Shown here piece after piece: positions 32,952 to 38,726 of a stretch of DNA of 41,483 nt (its first letter is position 1; each line of letters starts with the position of its first letter). This stretch comes from Nocardiopsis listeri (lineage in GTDB: Bacteria; Actinomycetota; Actinomycetes; Streptosporangiales; Streptosporangiaceae). The stretch covers positions 1 to 41,483 of the forward strand of contig NZ_DYZD01000386.1 in NCBI RefSeq assembly GCF_020741345.1, written 5' to 3'. The notes beneath the pieces were generated by a model. The model was given only the letters and a program-made list of their open reading frames with translations, made no database searches and was not told the DNA's origin. A program made the translations under genes and the position numbers.

Positions 32952-34028
32952 TCAGTGGGAGCGGCGGGTGGCCGCCACGACCAACTCGCGCAGCGGACCA
33001 CGCGCGCCCTCGTCCAGCTCCGGGCTCTCCAAAGCGGCGAGTGCCTGTTCGGAGTAGTCCTCGACCAGAGACTCACAGGCGGCCAGGGCACCGCTGGACT
33101 CGACCAGGGAGCACATCCACTCCACCGAGTCCGTCGACAGGTCGGGGGCACCCAACAGCGAGCGGAAGCGCTCGGCGTCGGTCTCACCGGACCGCGCCAG
33201 GGTCTCGGCCACCACCAGGGTCCGCTTGCCCTCGCGCAGGTCGTCACCGGCCGGCTTGCCCATGGTGCTCGGGTCACCGAACACGCCCAACAGGTCGTCG
33301 CGCAGCTGGAAGGCGATCCCCAACGGGATGCCGTAGTCGGTGTAGACCTCGGCGAGCTCGTCGCCCCGACCGGCCAACGCGGCCCCCAGGTGCAGCGGAC
33401 GCTCCACCGTGTACGCGGCGGTCTTGTACCGCATCACCCGAAGGGCGGCCTCACGGGTGGCGGTGCCGCGCACCTGTTCCAAGGTGTCCAGGTACTGCCC
33501 GGCCATGACCTCGGTGCGCATCGCGTCGAAGGGGCCGCGTCCGTCCTGCAGTGTCCGCGGTACGAACCCGCAGGCCTGGTACATCTCGTCGGACCAGGTC
33601 AGACACAGGTCGCCGATGAGGATCGCGGCACCACGACCGAACCCGTCGCTGTCGCCGCTCCAGCCCTCGTCGGCGTGCAGTCGGGCCATGCGTTTGTGGG
33701 TGGCGGGGGCGCCGCGTCGGGTGTCGCTGTTGTCGATCACGTCGTCGTGCACGAGGGCGCAGGCCTGGAGGAGCTCCAGGGACGAGGCCGCGCGGATCAT
33801 CCTGGCGTCGCCCTCGGCGCCTCCCGCGCCGCGCCACCCCCAGTAGGCGAAGGTGGGGCGCAGTCGCTTGCCGCCGGAGACGATCGCCTCCAAGGAGTCC
33901 ATGGCGGGGGCCAGCTCGGGGCCGATCTCCAGCAGCCGGACCCGGTGTTCGGCGCAGAAGTCGGACAGTTCGCGGTCCACGTCGGAACGGATGACGGACA
34001 CGGCTGAAAAGGCAGTGGAAGGGGCCAT
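32952..34028 (-). CDS. Polyprenyl (geranylgeranyl-type) diphosphate synthase
   Basis: This 358-residue all-helical isoprenyl transferase elongates allylic diphosphates with IPP. The first Asp-rich motif is in ALVHDDVIDNSDTRRG, the second in FQLRDDLLGVFGDP, with GGKRLRP near the N-terminus and GKRTLVVAETL after. It corresponds by position to IdsA2 (Rv2173). Chain length cannot be set from sequence alone. ATG 34028 is chosen: TAACCT ends 7 nt upstream (leaderless pattern) and upstream residues are unconserved. It is divergent from metF. Confidence 0.92.
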   Translation of the reverse strand: MAPSTAFSAVSVIRSDVDRELSDFCAEHRVRLLEIGPELAPAMDSLEAIVSGGKRLRPTFAYWGWRGAGGAEGDARMIRAASSLELLQACALVHDDVIDNSDTRRGAPATHKRMARLHADEGWSGDSDGFGRGAAILIGDLCLTWSDEMYQACGFVPRTLQDGRGPFDAMRTEVMAGQYLDTLEQVRGTATREAALRVMRYKTAAYTVERPLHLGAALAGRGDELAEVYTDYGIPLGIAFQLRDDLLGVFGDPSTMGKPAGDDLREGKRTLVVAETLARSGETDAERFRSLLGAPDLSTDSVEWMCSLVESSGALAACESLVEDYSEQALAALESPELDEGARGPLRELVVAATRRSH

Positions 34029-34035
34029 ACCCCGC

Positions 34036-34041
34036 AGGTTA
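34036..34041 (-). promoter_or_regulatory. Candidate -10 for leaderless polyprenyl synthase transcript
   Basis: TAACCT on the minus strand, exactly 7 nt before the ATG at 34028. Confidence 0.5.
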
Positions 34042-34344
34042 GTCGCTGGCCGAAGGGGTAAAGGCCCGGGTGTTCGGCGTCCCGGGCGGCCTCGCCGAGG
34101 CGGTTCCCCGTGATGGAATTCTCGGTGTCCGCAATGTGGACAAGATGGGACACGGGTGTGCTGCCCGAAGCGCGGTCGGTGTCGGTAGAAACCCATCAGA
34201 ATAGGGATTCTTGTCCCTAGGTCGGGTCGAACGGGAAGTTCATCGCGAAAATCCGCTTGTCTCACATGGTGGTACTTGAGATGGTCGAGTCGAAGACGAT
34301 CTTGAAGTATGAGATGAAGTGTCCGTGAATCGGGGGTCCTGGCC
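34042..34344. other. Divergent control region between polyprenyl synthase and metF
   Basis: No gene was found. The region is AT-richer than average. It holds the dyad TAGGGA-N6-TCCCTA (34202-34219) and a repeated TGAGATG word at 34277 and 34310, 33 bp apart (about three helical turns). Confidence 0.45.
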
Positions 34345-34350
34345 TAGGGT
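34345..34350 (+). promoter_or_regulatory. Candidate -10 for leaderless metF transcript
   Basis: TAGGGT ends 7 nt before the ATG at 34358; no clear -35. Confidence 0.5.
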
Positions 34351-34357
34351 GGGGATC

Positions 34358-35314
34358 ATGCTCGCTGCACCCACACGCCCCGTGGCGCCCCGAGGTCCGG
34401 CCCCCAGGCCGCGCCATATCCGAGACCTGCTCGACTCGGGTGAGCCGCTGTTCTCCTTCGAGTTCTTCCCGCCCCGCAACGCCCGTTCGCAGGAGCGTCT
34501 GTGGCGGGCCATCCGGGAGATCGAGGCGCTGGGCCCCTCGTTCGTCTCCGTCACCTACGGAGCCGGCGGCGGTACCCGCGACCTCACGGTGGAGACCACC
34601 GAGCGCATCGCCACCGACACCACGCTGATACCGGTCGCGCACATGACGCTGGTCGACCACTCCGTCGCCGAACTGCGCCACCTCATCGGTCGCCTGTGCG
34701 ACGCGGGCGTGTCCAACATGCTGGCCGTGCGCGGTGACCCGCCCGGCGACCCCGACGGCGAATGGGTCCGACACCCGGAGGGGCTCACCTACGCGGAGGA
34801 ACTGGTCCGCCTGCTCAAGGAGAGCGGCGACTTCTCCGTGGGCGTCGCCGCCTTCCCCTACAAGCACCCGCGATCGACCGACGTCGAGATCGACACCGAC
34901 CACTTCGTGCGCAAGTGCCGGGCGGGCGCCGACTACGCCATCACCCAGATGTTCTTCGACGCCGACGACTACCTTCGACTGCGCGACCGAGTGGCCGCCC
35001 GCGGCTGCGACATCCCGATCATCCCCGAGGTGTTCCCGGTGGTGAAGACGGCCTCGATCCGGCGTTCGGAAATGCTCTCGGGCGCCCCGTTCCCGCGCGC
35101 GCTGGCCGAGCGCTTCGAGAGCTTCGGCGACGACGCCGAGGCGGTGCGGGCGTTCGGGATCGAGCACGCCCAGAAGATGTGCGAGCGGCTGCTGGCGGAG
35201 GGCGCACCGGGCATCCACTTCATCACCTTCAACCAGTCCACGGCCACCAGGGAGATCTACCGGGAGATCGCTCCGGAGCGGCAGAGGTCGTCAGCGGCAG
35301 ACGCGCGGCCATGA
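34358..35314 (+). CDS. metF: Methylenetetrahydrofolate reductase
   Basis: A 318-residue FAD enzyme reducing methylene-THF to methyl-THF for methionine synthesis. It shows [65 protein letters not shown] and [13 protein letters not shown]. Equivalent in position to Rv2172c. ATG 34358 is chosen over GTG 34319 because a TAGGGT -10 lies between them, 7 nt before the ATG. The 3' end overlaps the convergent GNAT gene by 86 bp. Confidence 0.94.
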
Positions 35315-35840
35315 TCGAGAAGGGCTGGTCCGGGCTCCCCGGGAAGGAGAACGGGTCCAGCACCTCGACGAACCCGCACGAACGATAGAGGTGGCGTGCC
35401 GCCGAAGGGCCCGAACGCGTGGACAACACGGCCGTGCGTTCGGGCCTTCCCTCGCACAGTCGGTGCAGCATGCGTCGGCCGATGCCCTGGTTCTGGGCGT
35501 CGGGGTGGACGTGCACCTCGGCGATCTCCAAGGGGTCGCTCAGGTAGCGCTTGAGGTGGCCCCGCTGTCCCCGGGCGCGCATACCCTTGGTGACGACGTC
35601 GTGCCACCACTGGCCGTTCATGCCGTGGAAGGCGTAGGCGAACCCCACGGCGCGCTCGTCGTGGACGGCCAGGACGGCGCGGAACCCCGGGTGGCGGGTG
35701 TGGCCGTGCATGACGGAGGCCCGGCCCGGCAACTGCTCCGGGGGTGGGCGCATGGCGGCCTCATAGACCTCCAAAAGCGCCGGAACGACGTGCGCGAAGG
35801 CGCCGGGGGCGAGTTCACGTAACTCGGTGTCGACTGCCAC
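35229..35840 (-). CDS. GNAT-family N-acetyltransferase
   Basis: About 203 residues with an acetyl-CoA fold: [25 protein letters not shown] (the Q/RxxGxG/A motif) and [13 protein letters not shown]. The substrate is unknown. GTG 35840 is chosen because it begins [10 protein letters not shown] and lies 6 nt after TACCCT (and near GGAG); a longer frame to 35885 exists. The last 20 or so residues, a Ser/Pro/Trp-rich tail, are read from DNA antisense to the end of metF and look like run-on past an eroded stop. Confidence 0.8.
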
Positions 35841-35919
35841 GACTCCAGGGTAGGCGGTTGCGCCGCCGTTGGACCTGGTTTTCACGGGGTCGATGCTCTC
35901 GTCGTTCTCCCGATTCTCC

Positions 35920-35948
35920 TTGACGCTCCGCTCGTGGGGGTGTTAACT
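35920..35948 (+). promoter_or_regulatory. Orphan rightward promoter
   Basis: TTGACG (35920-35925), 17 nt, TTAACT (35943-35948). No rightward gene follows before the terminator at 36072; an SOS-box-like palindrome begins 8 bp later. Confidence 0.45.
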
Positions 35949-35956
35949 GGTGCCCA

Positions 35957-35972
35957 TCGAACAGGAGTTCGA
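35957..35972. promoter_or_regulatory. LexA/SOS-box-like palindrome
   Basis: TCGAAC-AGGA-GTTCGA matches the actinobacterial SOS box TCGAAC-N4-GTTCGA in both half sites. It overlaps the predicted start site of the orphan promoter. Confidence 0.6.
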
Positions 35973-36071
35973 TACGCCCGCCCTTGTGTGGGCGAGGCGG
36001 GGCCGGGTCGGGGAGGGGAAGCCCTTACCCGGCCTCGTCGTATGTCCAGGCCCCGATGGACGGGCCGGGCG

Positions 36072-36119
36072 CACGAAGAGCCGGGCGGCGCCCTTTCGGG
36101 TGGCACCCGGCTCTTCGTG
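36072..36119. terminator. Terminator of bldD (leftward) and of the candidate sRNA (rightward)
   Basis: Perfect 14-bp arms CACGAAGAGCCGGG and CCCGGCTCTTCGTG with a structured 20-nt loop, 28 bp beyond the bldD stop. Confidence 0.85.
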
Positions 36120-36146
36120 AGCGATCGTGCTTGTTCGCGCCCGGGG

Positions 36147-36641
36147 TCAGAAGGCGTCGACGGCGCGGCGGGCCTCGGGGTCGAGGACCCCCCAGTTGAC
36201 GAGCTCCTCGGTGAGGTCCCCGGGGGACTTGTCGTAGATGACCGCGAGTGAGCGCAGGTCCTCCTGGCGGATGGACAGCACTCGCCCGTTGTAGTCACCC
36301 CGCTGGCTCTGGATGGTGGCGACGTAGCGGGAGAGAGGACCGGCCTTCTCCTGCGGGAGCTGCTGCATGCGCTCCAGGTCGATCACCAGCTTGGGCGTCG
36401 GGCCCAACGGGGTGGGCGCGGCGCCGCCGGGCAGCAGCTCCGACATCGGCACGCCGTAGAAGTCGGCCAGCTCGGCCAGCTTCTGGACGGTGACGGCGCG
36501 GTCGCCGCGCTCGTAGGAGCCCACCACGACGGCCTTCCAGCGTCCGTGGGACTTCTCCTCCACTCCGTGCAGGGAAAGGCCCTGTTGGGTGCGGATGGCA
36601 CGCAGTCGCGCACCGAGGGACTTGGCGTATTCGGATGGCAT
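36147..36641 (-). CDS. bldD: BldD developmental regulator (c-di-GMP responsive)
   Basis: A 164-residue homologue of Streptomyces BldD. The N-terminal helix-turn-helix is nearly identical (EYAKSLGARLRAIRTQQGLS, HGVEEKSHGRWKAVVVGSYERGDRAV). The C-terminal domain has the c-di-GMP signature RGD (114-116), eight residues, then RQED (125-128), where Streptomyces has RQDD. BldD-(c-di-GMP)4 represses sporulation genes. GGGAG lies 10 nt before the ATG. The promoter carries a BldD-box-like dyad, suggesting autoregulation. It is divergent from the pyr operon, as in Streptomyces. Confidence 0.96.
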   Translation of the reverse strand: MPSEYAKSLGARLRAIRTQQGLSLHGVEEKSHGRWKAVVVGSYERGDRAVTVQKLAELADFYGVPMSELLPGGAAPTPLGPTPKLVIDLERMQQLPQEKAGPLSRYVATIQSQRGDYNGRVLSIRQEDLRSLAVIYDKSPGDLTEELVNWGVLDPEARRAVDAF

Positions 36642-36763
36642 CTTTTTGTCGCTCCCGGCCGTGACGGTGGCTGGCGTGAGTGGGGGAGACGTCCGCTCGT
36701 ACTCGGCGGGCCGCCTGGGCGGTCCAGCGGATGGTCACGGGGTGCAACCCCACCCGGTAGTGG

Positions 36764-36776
36764 TTACAGACAGTGA
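36764..36776. promoter_or_regulatory. BldD-box-like operator on the bldD promoter
   Basis: TTACAGACAGTGA matches the outer TNAC and GTNA halves of the BldD consensus, overlapping the predicted start site; the two inner consensus positions differ. Confidence 0.5.
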
Positions 36777-36805
36777 CGGTAGAGGGGTGCTGGTGTCCAG
36801 GTCAA
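36776..36805 (-). promoter_or_regulatory. bldD promoter
   Basis: On the minus strand, -35 TTGACC (36800-36805) and -10 TACCGT (36776-36781) are 18 nt apart. Predicted 5' UTR about 128 nt. Confidence 0.65.
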
Positions 36806-37011
36806 GCCGTTGGTGTGAAACGCGACTAATCAGTGGCCAAACCGTGCGTAGGTGAGACGCCTCTCATTTGTGGAGGGGGCGGGACGAGTGGGACGTTCTC
36901 GGGGATCGGAAAGCCCACTCCTGCAGGGAATTTCGTGTTTCCCACCGATGAGGGGCGATTCCGAAGTGTCATGAAATGGATACTCTTGACTGGGTAATCC
37001 ATGGCATTGAA
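36806..37011. other. Intergenic region between bldD and pyr promoters
   Basis: No gene was found. It contains a TTGACT hexamer at 36986-36991 that could be a -35 for rightward transcription, with a poor -10 (GAATGT) 17 nt later overlapping the CRP-like site. Confidence 0.4.
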
Positions 37012-37027
37012 TGTGATGAGCATCACA
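37012..37027. promoter_or_regulatory. CRP-like palindrome TGTGATGAGCATCACA
   Basis: Exact TGTGA-N6-TCACA, the class bound by Crp/GlxR-type regulators. It lies 117 bp before the pyrR start and near a possible rightward -10. Confidence 0.6.
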
Positions 37028-37099
37028 GTTGCGCTCTCGTGGGTGGGGACGCGCCCAAGGGCTCCGGAATCCTCGCTGGTAGCGTGGGCCCGATCGACA

Positions 37100-37135
37100 T
37101 CCTTTAACGACCTGTTCTGTGAGGCAGGGAAGGGG
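37100..37135 (+). promoter_or_regulatory. PyrR-binding RNA element overlapping the pyrR ribosome binding site
   Basis: The sequence reads CCTTTAACGA, CCTG, TTCTGTGAGG, CAGG, GAAGGGG. Lower stem CCTT/AAGG, purine bulge, upper stem CCTG/CAGG and loop containing GTGAGG match the PyrR binding-loop pattern. The 3' strand contains the Shine-Dalgarno, so PyrR-UMP would block translation. Confidence 0.7.
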
Positions 37136-37143
37136 TCACTATT

Positions 37144-37818
37144 TTGCATGCGCGAAAACCCGCGCGGGACGACAACGAGATCGCGCCTCCCGCGTCGATG
37201 CCCGAGGTACCCGAAGGCACACGAGCCGTCCTCGACGGCAACGAGATCAACCGGGCGCTGACCCGGATCGCCCACGAGGTGCTCGAACGCACCAAGGGCG
37301 GCCAGGACGTCACCCTCCTGGGCATCCCCTCCAGAGGTGTTCCCCTCGCCGAACGCCTGGCACGACGGATCGAGCGCGTCGAAGACCTCGACGTTCCCGC
37401 CGGTTCCCTCGACATCACCATGTACCGCGACGACCTGCGGCTCGCGCCCGCCCGCGCCCTCGGCAAGACCGAGATCCCAGCCGGCGGCCTCGACGACCGT
37501 GTCGTCGTCCTCGTCGACGACGTCCTCTTCTCCGGCCGCACCGTGCGCGCCGCGCTGGACGCCCTCGGCGACCTCGGCCGCCCCCGCGCCGTCCAACTCG
37601 CCGTCCTCGTCGACCGGGGCCACCGCGAACTGCCGATCCGCGCCGACTACGTGGGCAAGAACCTGCCCACCTCCCTGCGTGAGAGCGTCACCGTCCAGCT
37701 GGAGGAGACCGACGGCCTCGACGCCGTCCTCCTCGGGCCCTCGCCCTCCGCCAACGGCAAGGAAGGCACGCGGCCCGGCTCCCTCCAGCGCCCCGAAGAC
37801 ACGGAAGGGGACGCCTGA
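37144..37818 (+). CDS. pyrR: Bifunctional pyr operon regulator / uracil phosphoribosyltransferase
   Basis: About 224 residues. The phosphoribosyltransferase fold has the PRPP loop [14 protein letters not shown] and [29 protein letters not shown] is also typical of PyrR. It binds pyr leader RNA when UMP is high. TTG 37144 is proposed as start because AGGGAAGGGG lies about 8 nt upstream inside the PyrR-binding element; ATG 37198, without Shine-Dalgarno, is the alternative. The C-terminus has an extra acidic tail. The stop overlaps the pyrB ATG (TGATG). Confidence 0.93.
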
Positions 37819-38726
37819 TGCGCCACCTGCTCTCCGCCGGTGACCTCAGCCGGGACGAGGCCACTCTCATCCTGGACACCGCCGGCGAACTCGCCCAGGT
37901 GGGGGACCGCTCCGTCAAGAAGCTCCCCACCCTGCGCGGTCGCACCGTGGTCAACCTCTTCTACGAGGACTCCACCCGCACCCGCACCTCCTTCGAACTG
38001 GCCGCCAAGCGCCTGTCCGCCGACGTCATCAACTTCTCGGCCAAGGGCTCCAGCGTCTCCAAGGGGGAGAGCCTCAAGGACACCGCGCTCACCCTCCAGG
38101 CCATGGGCGCCGACGGCGTGGTCATCCGACACAGCGCCTCCGGGGCACCCCACCGCCTGGCGAACTGGGTCGACGGCTCGGTGCTCAACGCCGGCGACGG
38201 TACCCACGAGCACCCCACCCAGGCCCTGCTGGACGCGTTCACCATGCGCGAGCGCCTGGGCCGACTCGAAGGGCTGCGCGTGGCCGTGGTCGGCGACATC
38301 CTGCACAGTCGGGTCGCCCGCTCCAACGTCCTGCTGCTCACCACCCTGGGTGCGCACGTGACCCTGGTCGCCCCGCCCACGCTGATGCCGGTCTCGGTGC
38401 ACACCTGGCCCTGCGAGGTCTCCTACGACCTCGACGAGGTGCTGCCCAAGTCCGACGTGGTGATGATGCTGCGCGTGCAGGCCGAGCGCATGCACGACTC
38501 CTTCTTCCCCTCGGTACGCGAGTACAGCCGCAACTACGGCCTCGACGGCGAACGCCTGAGCCGGATGCCGGAGGAGGCCATCGTCATGCACCCGGGCCCG
38601 ATGGTGCGCGGCATGGAGATCTCCGCCCAGGTCGCCGACTCTCCCCGCTGCACCGTCACCGAGCAGGTCGCCAACGGTGTCAGCCTGCGCATGGCCGTGC
38701 TCTACCTGCTGCTCGGCGGGTCCTAG
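37818..38726 (+). CDS. pyrB: Aspartate carbamoyltransferase catalytic subunit
   Basis: This 302-residue enzyme makes carbamoyl aspartate in pyrimidine synthesis. Carbamoyl phosphate is bound by [18 protein letters not shown]; other marks are [30 protein letters not shown] and [11 protein letters not shown]. No pyrI gene is seen, as usual for actinobacteria where PyrB associates with dihydroorotase. It overlaps pyrR by one base. Confidence 0.96.

Follow-up and report, generated by a model that had tools for sequence, protein, structure and literature searches.

One question raised by the stretch of DNA analysed here (41,483 nucleotides from Nocardiopsis listeri, contig NZ_DYZD01000386.1; hereafter the window) is what a rightward promoter with a LexA (SOS) box serves when no gene lies directly ahead of it. 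An earlier note on this DNA had claimed such a promoter pair and box at this locus and had proposed that they drive a stand-alone structured RNA. A -35 element, a spacer, a -10 element and a perfect LexA box were found in tandem at positions 35920-35972, in rightward orientation (Table 1), and these elements are conserved among relatives. All 37 readable bldD loci of Nocardiopsis contained the box with 0 mismatches together with the GNAT gene, and a promoter pattern (TTGAC, 17-19 nt, TT[AGT]ACT) preceded the box in 36 of the 37. Among 30 bldD loci of the family, the GNAT gene was present in 11, and a box with at most 1 mismatch lay between GNAT and bldD in 10 of these 11. The earlier note had pointed to the T at the second position of the -10 element as a weakness, and a sigma-70 scan of positions 35000-37000, in which an A was demanded at that position, returned no promoter; the pattern is nevertheless conserved in 36 loci, and because the scan was negative the case for the promoter rests on this conservation. 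In the Nocardiopsis alignment, the mean information per ten columns was 1.0-1.5 bits in the promoter hexamers and the box, 0.7 bits in the spacer and 1.0-1.15 bits in the stem behind bldD, and the core of the hairpin P2 (see below) carried 1.6-1.9 bits against 0.35-0.7 bits across much of the flanks. The neighbouring GNAT gene looks leaderless, with TACCCT at 35847-35852 (minus strand) and, by eye, TAnnnT 6-7 nt before the GTG in 11 loci.

The window has a single exact copy of the palindrome TCGAACN4GTTCGA and the 5.5-Mb genome has five, compared with none of a reversed control pattern. One of the other four exact boxes is located at a dnaE2-type polymerase gene (with PHP and DNA_pol3_alpha domains) and one at a DUF6504 gene, and the lexA gene of this genome has an upstream box with 1 mismatch. 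Since similar boxes stand at the dnaE2-type, DUF6504 and lexA genes, the box in the window is presumably of a kind that the LexA of this genome would recognise, and by its promoter box the locus would belong to the actinobacterial LexA regulon.

Table 1. Features of the locus (positions in the window).
Feature	Position	Strand	Remarks
-35 element TTGACG	35920-35925	+	read in the sequence; conserved in Nocardiopsis loci
-10 element TTAACT, inside the conserved GTTaACTG	35943-35948	+	spacer to the -35 element, 17 nt
LexA (SOS) box TCGAACAGGAGTTCGA	35957-35972	no strand	exact match; where the RNA is expected to start
P1 hairpin, whose sequence and length vary	35975-35994	+	predicted fold
P2 hairpin, conserved core of the RNA	35996-36039	+	match of covariance model R1 at 35993-36042, 37.1 bits; covariation
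P2 apical loop AGGGGAAG	36014-36021	+	complements CUUCCCC(U) of this genome's dnaE2 leader (loci L003 and L267, on contig C181)
14-bp stem-loop right behind bldD	36072-36119	-	probable bldD terminator; possibly two-way, ending the RNA too
bldD, neighbour outside the system	36147-36641	-	NF050110, 299 bits
GNAT acetyltransferase gene, divergent neighbour outside the system	35229-35840	-	PF13508/PF00583; own -10 beside the GTG

The 105 nt that begin at the box are predicted to fold with -60 kcal/mol (z -3.5). Four stem-loops had been counted in the earlier note; P2 proved to be clearly conserved, but the rest consist of P1, which is variable and has no place in the alignment's consensus structure, and the stem behind bldD. 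Covariation in P2 was assessed with 17 diverse sequences (alignment A2), obtained from 23 hairpins by omitting L005, L006, L008, L012, L018 and L040, which have indels or a divergent loop. In this alignment 94.5% of the cells were paired, compared with 41-54% for slid structures, and double changes occurred at 9 of the 16 pairs. Within Nocardiopsis, a genus that lacks the HEPN gene described below, 97.5% of the P2 cells were paired and 19 cells showed double changes, a result reached by none of 500 shuffles, and slid structures gave 29-52%. Many pairs of P2 are G-U on the plus strand (one of them in 14 of the 17 sequences) and would become A-C mismatches on the minus strand, and for this reason the RNA was assigned to the plus strand. 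No Rfam 15 covariance model matched positions 34000-38000 of the window at E<=1, and a search of 13 loci with Rfam returned two matches only, both well under the gathering score.

A coding small mRNA was considered and rejected on account of its unconserved start positions and peptides. An ATG or GTG ORF of at least 10 codons starting in the first 130 nt was present in 29 of the 37 Nocardiopsis loci and lacking in 8, and no small ORF was conserved, starts and peptides varying among loci. Chance ORFs of this sort are common in GC-rich DNA. A general kissing pair between P1 and P2 was also discarded, given that the P1 loop contains CCCCCC in some Nocardiopsis and is a TTCG loop in others. The rightward, LexA-boxed, non-coding structured RNA of the earlier note thus finds support, as a prediction from sequence, in the conserved orientation, box, hairpin and G-U pairs; the box and the P2 hairpin are conserved in relatives, the latter with covariation. 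The 14-bp terminator that had been assigned to this RNA does exist as a perfect stem (36072-36085 paired with 36106-36119), and most of the Nocardiopsis loci displayed have a comparable stem between P2 and bldD, but the stem of the window sits right behind bldD and fits as the terminator of that gene. At locus L008, TTTTTT comes after an outer stem around P2, and the two make a plausible intrinsic terminator for a stand-alone RNA there. A long near-perfect inverted repeat, CTTCGTTGATCTCGGAGATATTGGGGTC ... GACCCCAATATCTCCGAGATCAACGAAG, was also seen at L008, in the stretch that separates the LexA box from the start of GNAT, and it is possibly a small mobile element.

In most relatives the same promoter, box and hairpin form the 5' leader of a HEPN_SAV_6107 gene (PF18726). 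The RNA of the window, in which the LexA promoter is followed by a P2 hairpin with an [AU]GGGGAAG loop, would belong to this class of leader RNAs. No PF18726 match was obtained in the genome of the window, where the RNA has no HEPN gene downstream, and the HEPN gene was found at the bldD locus in none of the 37 Nocardiopsis loci read. A covariance search of related genomes, suggested in the earlier note, covered 250 genomes of the family with strict filters (E<=0.01). P2 was matched in 230 of them, and PF18726 was present in 194. Both occurred in 186 genomes, the gene alone in 8, neither in 12 and the RNA alone in 44, one of which (G126) is merely 77% complete, its gene absence being uncertain; 21 of the 44 belong to the genus of the window. 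Within Nocardiopsis, the covariance model R1 matched 40 of 40 genomes at a loose E<=0.5; 37 were readable at the bldD locus, and G088, G522 and G524 gave matches away from bldD. Across the class, R1 matched 50 of 296 genomes, 27 in the family and 23 outside; three of these 23 (G259, G339 and G430) have the hairpin just upstream of HEPN, judged by coordinates, and most of the others are putative. A pattern scan of named genomes retrieved 32 stretches, mostly from Nocardiopsis, with candidate matches in Amycolatopsis, Kineococcus, Brachybacterium and some metagenome bins.

Given the wide occurrence of PF18726 across the class (141 of 197 genomes), the absence of the HEPN gene from the clade of the window is read as a loss. 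On a tree of bldD and pyrR with 29 rows, the gene label must change at least twice to agree with the well-supported branches, and five times on the best tree. One genus is itself split, with HEPN kept in G111 and G132 and absent from G040 and G086. Two label changes could correspond to one loss and one regain, although a regain at the same spot is unlikely. Given the spread of the gene in the class and the label changes on the tree, the RNA was probably kept after the loss of the HEPN gene behind it, and on more than one occasion.

Outside the family of the window, 16 of 30 HEPN loci had a LexA box with at most 1 mismatch upstream of the gene, and 11 of the 14 box-less loci belong to a single family, f18, which appears to be a Streptomyces-like family. 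Among 40 further HEPN loci from 25 families, which were chosen by hand for family spread with f18 left out, such a box was present in 36, against 0.08 expected by shuffling. In nine other-family genomes HEPN immediately precedes dnaE2 on the same strand (9 of the 10 non-f18 genomes with a dnaE2 match, by coordinates), and DUF6504 was the first gene behind the box in both of the other-family leaders tested (L196 and L242). A CTCGACCCC-type stretch, possibly the loop of a first hairpin, was observed after the LexA box in L196, L198, L204, L205, L209, L213, L216, L219 and L220. The f18 HEPN loci L195, L208, L210, L211, L212, L215 and L222 have no LexA box with at most 1 mismatch, and GGATTGTCAGTGG or a close form was seen upstream. 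This type of motif resembles the mycobacterial RecA-independent (PafBC) damage promoter, and HEPN_SAV_6107 may be under damage control by another route in f18. SAV_6107 is listed as an actinobacterial HEPN family in a 2013 survey (PMC3710099), and the word HEPN is absent from the main text of a LexA study in Streptomyces venezuelae (PMC9380542).

The conserved loop of P2 is complementary to CUUCCCC, and in other families this element occurs in cis. The P2 leaders of those families, of which 10 out of 70 HEPN loci passed the P2 pattern and fold filter, carried CTTCCCC 29-53 nt downstream in 9 of 10 cases and in none of the 10 within the 150 nt upstream; L204 has a P2 leader without CTTCCCC. In the family of the window, CTTCCCC in cis was found in 1 of 59 RNA-only loci (some genomes being included twice) but in none of 37 HEPN-bearing loci and none of 11 others; L018 and L148 failed the loop pattern of the search. 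There, dnaE2 lies elsewhere in the genome and its own leader carries CTTCCCC. The element was present in 38 of the 40 readable dnaE2 leaders of the family, compared with a chance expectation of 0.012 per 60-nt window, and this amounts to a conserved complementarity to an mRNA leader. It was detected in 20 of 20 readable leaders from HEPN-bearing genomes (the 21st, L324, ends at the contig end) and in 18 of 20 from RNA-only genomes, namely 7 of 7 outside Nocardiopsis and 11 of 13 readable ones in Nocardiopsis (of 15 loci, L279 and L281 begin within the gene; the second copy of G520 was left out).

The arrangement of these leaders is regular. CTTCCCC stands exactly 11 nt after the box in the seven RNA-only leaders outside Nocardiopsis, and a box with at most 2 mismatches lies 11-43 nt before it in all 20 HEPN-bearing leaders, where the boxes are often weak (2 mismatches in 12 of the 20). 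When the HEPN-bearing leaders were folded, the element fell in an 8-nt hairpin loop in 16 of 19, and the gene between leader and dnaE2 was DUF6504 in the three cases tested (L304, L305 and L321). The stem of this partner hairpin covaries among 21 hairpins (13 forms from dnaE2 leaders of the family plus 8 cis-leader forms; alignment A4), the distinct forms having been picked by hand with the loop as the selection motif. In f18, boxes with at most 2 mismatches were found at 11 of 13 dnaE2 loci, CTTCCCC occurred within 110 nt of none of these 11, and the genomes in question gave no R1 match. Both elements are nearly invariant, which for the loops in A2 and A4, gathered by the motif itself, is partly a matter of selection; one variant loop, TGGACAAG (G054, locus L018), belongs to a genome that keeps HEPN and has no dnaE2 match.

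The reading that we consider likely is that the locus specifies a LexA-repressed, damage-induced non-coding RNA, an orphaned HEPN leader, that pairs in trans with the dnaE2 leader. DNA damage would relieve repression by LexA and allow transcription of a rightward non-coding RNA of roughly 85-165 nt, which would be the 5' leader left behind by the HEPN_SAV_6107 gene lost from the clade of the window. Its P2 loop is predicted to pair, through 7-8 Watson-Crick pairs, with CUUCCCC in the leader of the LexA-boxed dnaE2 mRNA. Both RNAs would be induced by damage, and their pairing would set the translation of the mutagenic polymerase DnaE2. Activation is favoured over repression, by about two to one, because CUUCCCC is able to mask the ribosome site of many such mRNAs, and the RNA could open this masked site; in the predicted fold of the dnaE2 leader of the window's genome, CCCCUUC is set against GAAGGGG ahead of the start. 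Since other families hold both elements in one leader, that of a DUF6504/HEPN/dnaE2-type SOS operon, the trans pair would descend from a cis pair. On balance, we lean towards an ancestral cis kissing-loop switch of this SOS mutagenesis operon that was split together with the operon, each half keeping its LexA box and the gene-less half now controlling DnaE2 in trans. The RNA probably controls damage-induced mutagenesis. To the earlier note, the present analysis adds that the RNA would be the orphaned leader of a lost gene and that a conserved complement to its loop lies ahead of dnaE2.

The gene dnaE2 cannot be the only use of the RNA, because the RNA is kept in genomes without a dnaE2 match: dnaE2 was undetected in 16 of 31 Nocardiopsis genomes, in 14 of which the RNA was read, and in 26 of 54 other genomes of the family, in 24 of which R1 matched. 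This retention speaks for a different explanation, unlikely in our judgement though deserving of weight, in which the SOS small RNA is real, its G-rich loop acts on a protein or on other targets, and the CUUCCCC of dnaE2 solely masks its own ribosome site. Self-pairing of CUUCCCC with its downstream region, which extends to 7 pairs in 16 of 38 leaders when G-U is counted, points the same way, as do the Nocardiopsis leaders L272 and L273, whose CTTCCTCCCC is a better match to the GGGGAGG of the same leader than to the RNA loop. However, at least 6 Watson-Crick pairs with the downstream region were formed in only 5 of the 38 leaders, and 16 of the 38 form 5 pairs or fewer even when G-U is included, yet all 38 match the P2 loop with 7-8 Watson-Crick pairs (7 by the choice of motif). 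The cis pair in other families and its separation in the family of the window also fit a loop-loop pair. A second target was sought in 1.6 Mb of G086 (about one third of the genome), where no LexA box with at most 1 mismatch had CTTCCCC within 74 nt. One locus of this genome, L389, contains two exact LexA boxes at offsets 1353 and 2216, less than 0.9 kb apart. The favoured reading is also weakened by the poor boxes of many HEPN-bearing dnaE2 operons, by the lack of CTTCCCC in L204 and by the small share (10 of 70) of other-family HEPN loci that passed the P2 filter.

It is quite improbable that promoter and leader are a vestige, decaying without function after the loss of HEPN. It is true that none of the 10 RNA-only genomes in the first comparison has the HEPN gene, that P1 is variable, and that P2 reaches 37 bits in the window and as much as 71 in other genera; but the near-complete conservation of box and promoter and the compensatory changes inside the HEPN-less genus argue against decay, as does the persistence of the RNA in more than one gene-less lineage of the tree, barring a regain of the gene at the same spot. 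The earlier note had also raised the possibility that the box serves the leftward GNAT gene, the rightward RNA then being incidental. About 117 bp separate the box from the start of GNAT, which follows as the nearest gene in the Nocardiopsis loci that were read; nonetheless, the promoter hexamers beside the box point right, GNAT has its own -10 at the start codon (11 loci, by eye), it occurs without the box in L020, and the box accompanies the RNA where GNAT is not adjacent, which makes this explanation most improbable. An action of the RNA on bldD, by antisense or convergent transcription, would agree with its heading towards the 3' end of that gene, the start of the box being 193 bp from the last codons. 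This has hardly any claim either, since several RNA-bearing genera lack bldD in the fetched 1.5 kb (e.g. L102-L107) and the HEPN gene lies between the RNA and bldD in other loci. A special link to the developmental regulator, as suggested by the earlier note, is therefore not supported, and the position beside bldD is incidental.

RNAs tied to the SOS response, and control through kissing loops, have precedents in other systems. In the LexA-linked systems TisB/IstR-1 and SymE/SymR of E. coli, the RNAs curb toxin mRNAs. The locus described here likewise has a non-coding RNA at an SOS-controlled site, but the Nocardiopsis RNA is itself LexA-boxed, its candidate target is the mRNA of a DNA polymerase, and no toxin gene was seen adjacent to it. 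The predicted contact between the apical loops of two hairpins is like that of RNAI/RNAII and CopA/CopT of plasmids, where the kissing-loop partners are antisense transcripts of one locus, whereas the Nocardiopsis elements lie at separate loci and would descend from one leader. DsrA and RprA are anti-antisense activators of rpoS; the RNA would similarly free a masked ribosome site, although with a much shorter match of 7-8 bp. The SreA SAM riboswitch of Listeria is a leader RNA that also acts in trans, and a 5' leader element acting on a second mRNA is what we propose here, with the difference that in the clade of the window the gene behind the leader was lost and the promoter and leader were kept as a free-standing unit. 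Searches of the open-licence literature turned up no description of this RNA, no mention of a link between it and HEPN_SAV_6107 and no LexA-controlled small RNA in Actinomycetes, and the available part of PMC2864571 is silent on all three. If the proposal is correct, HEPN_SAV_6107 would be a widespread SOS gene, located directly upstream of dnaE2 in some genomes, and Actinomycetes would possess a LexA-controlled small RNA that acts on mutagenesis. Error-prone DNA synthesis would then have a post-transcriptional layer in the phylum of Streptomyces and Mycobacterium, and the locus would be an example of a small RNA born when a leader outlived its gene.
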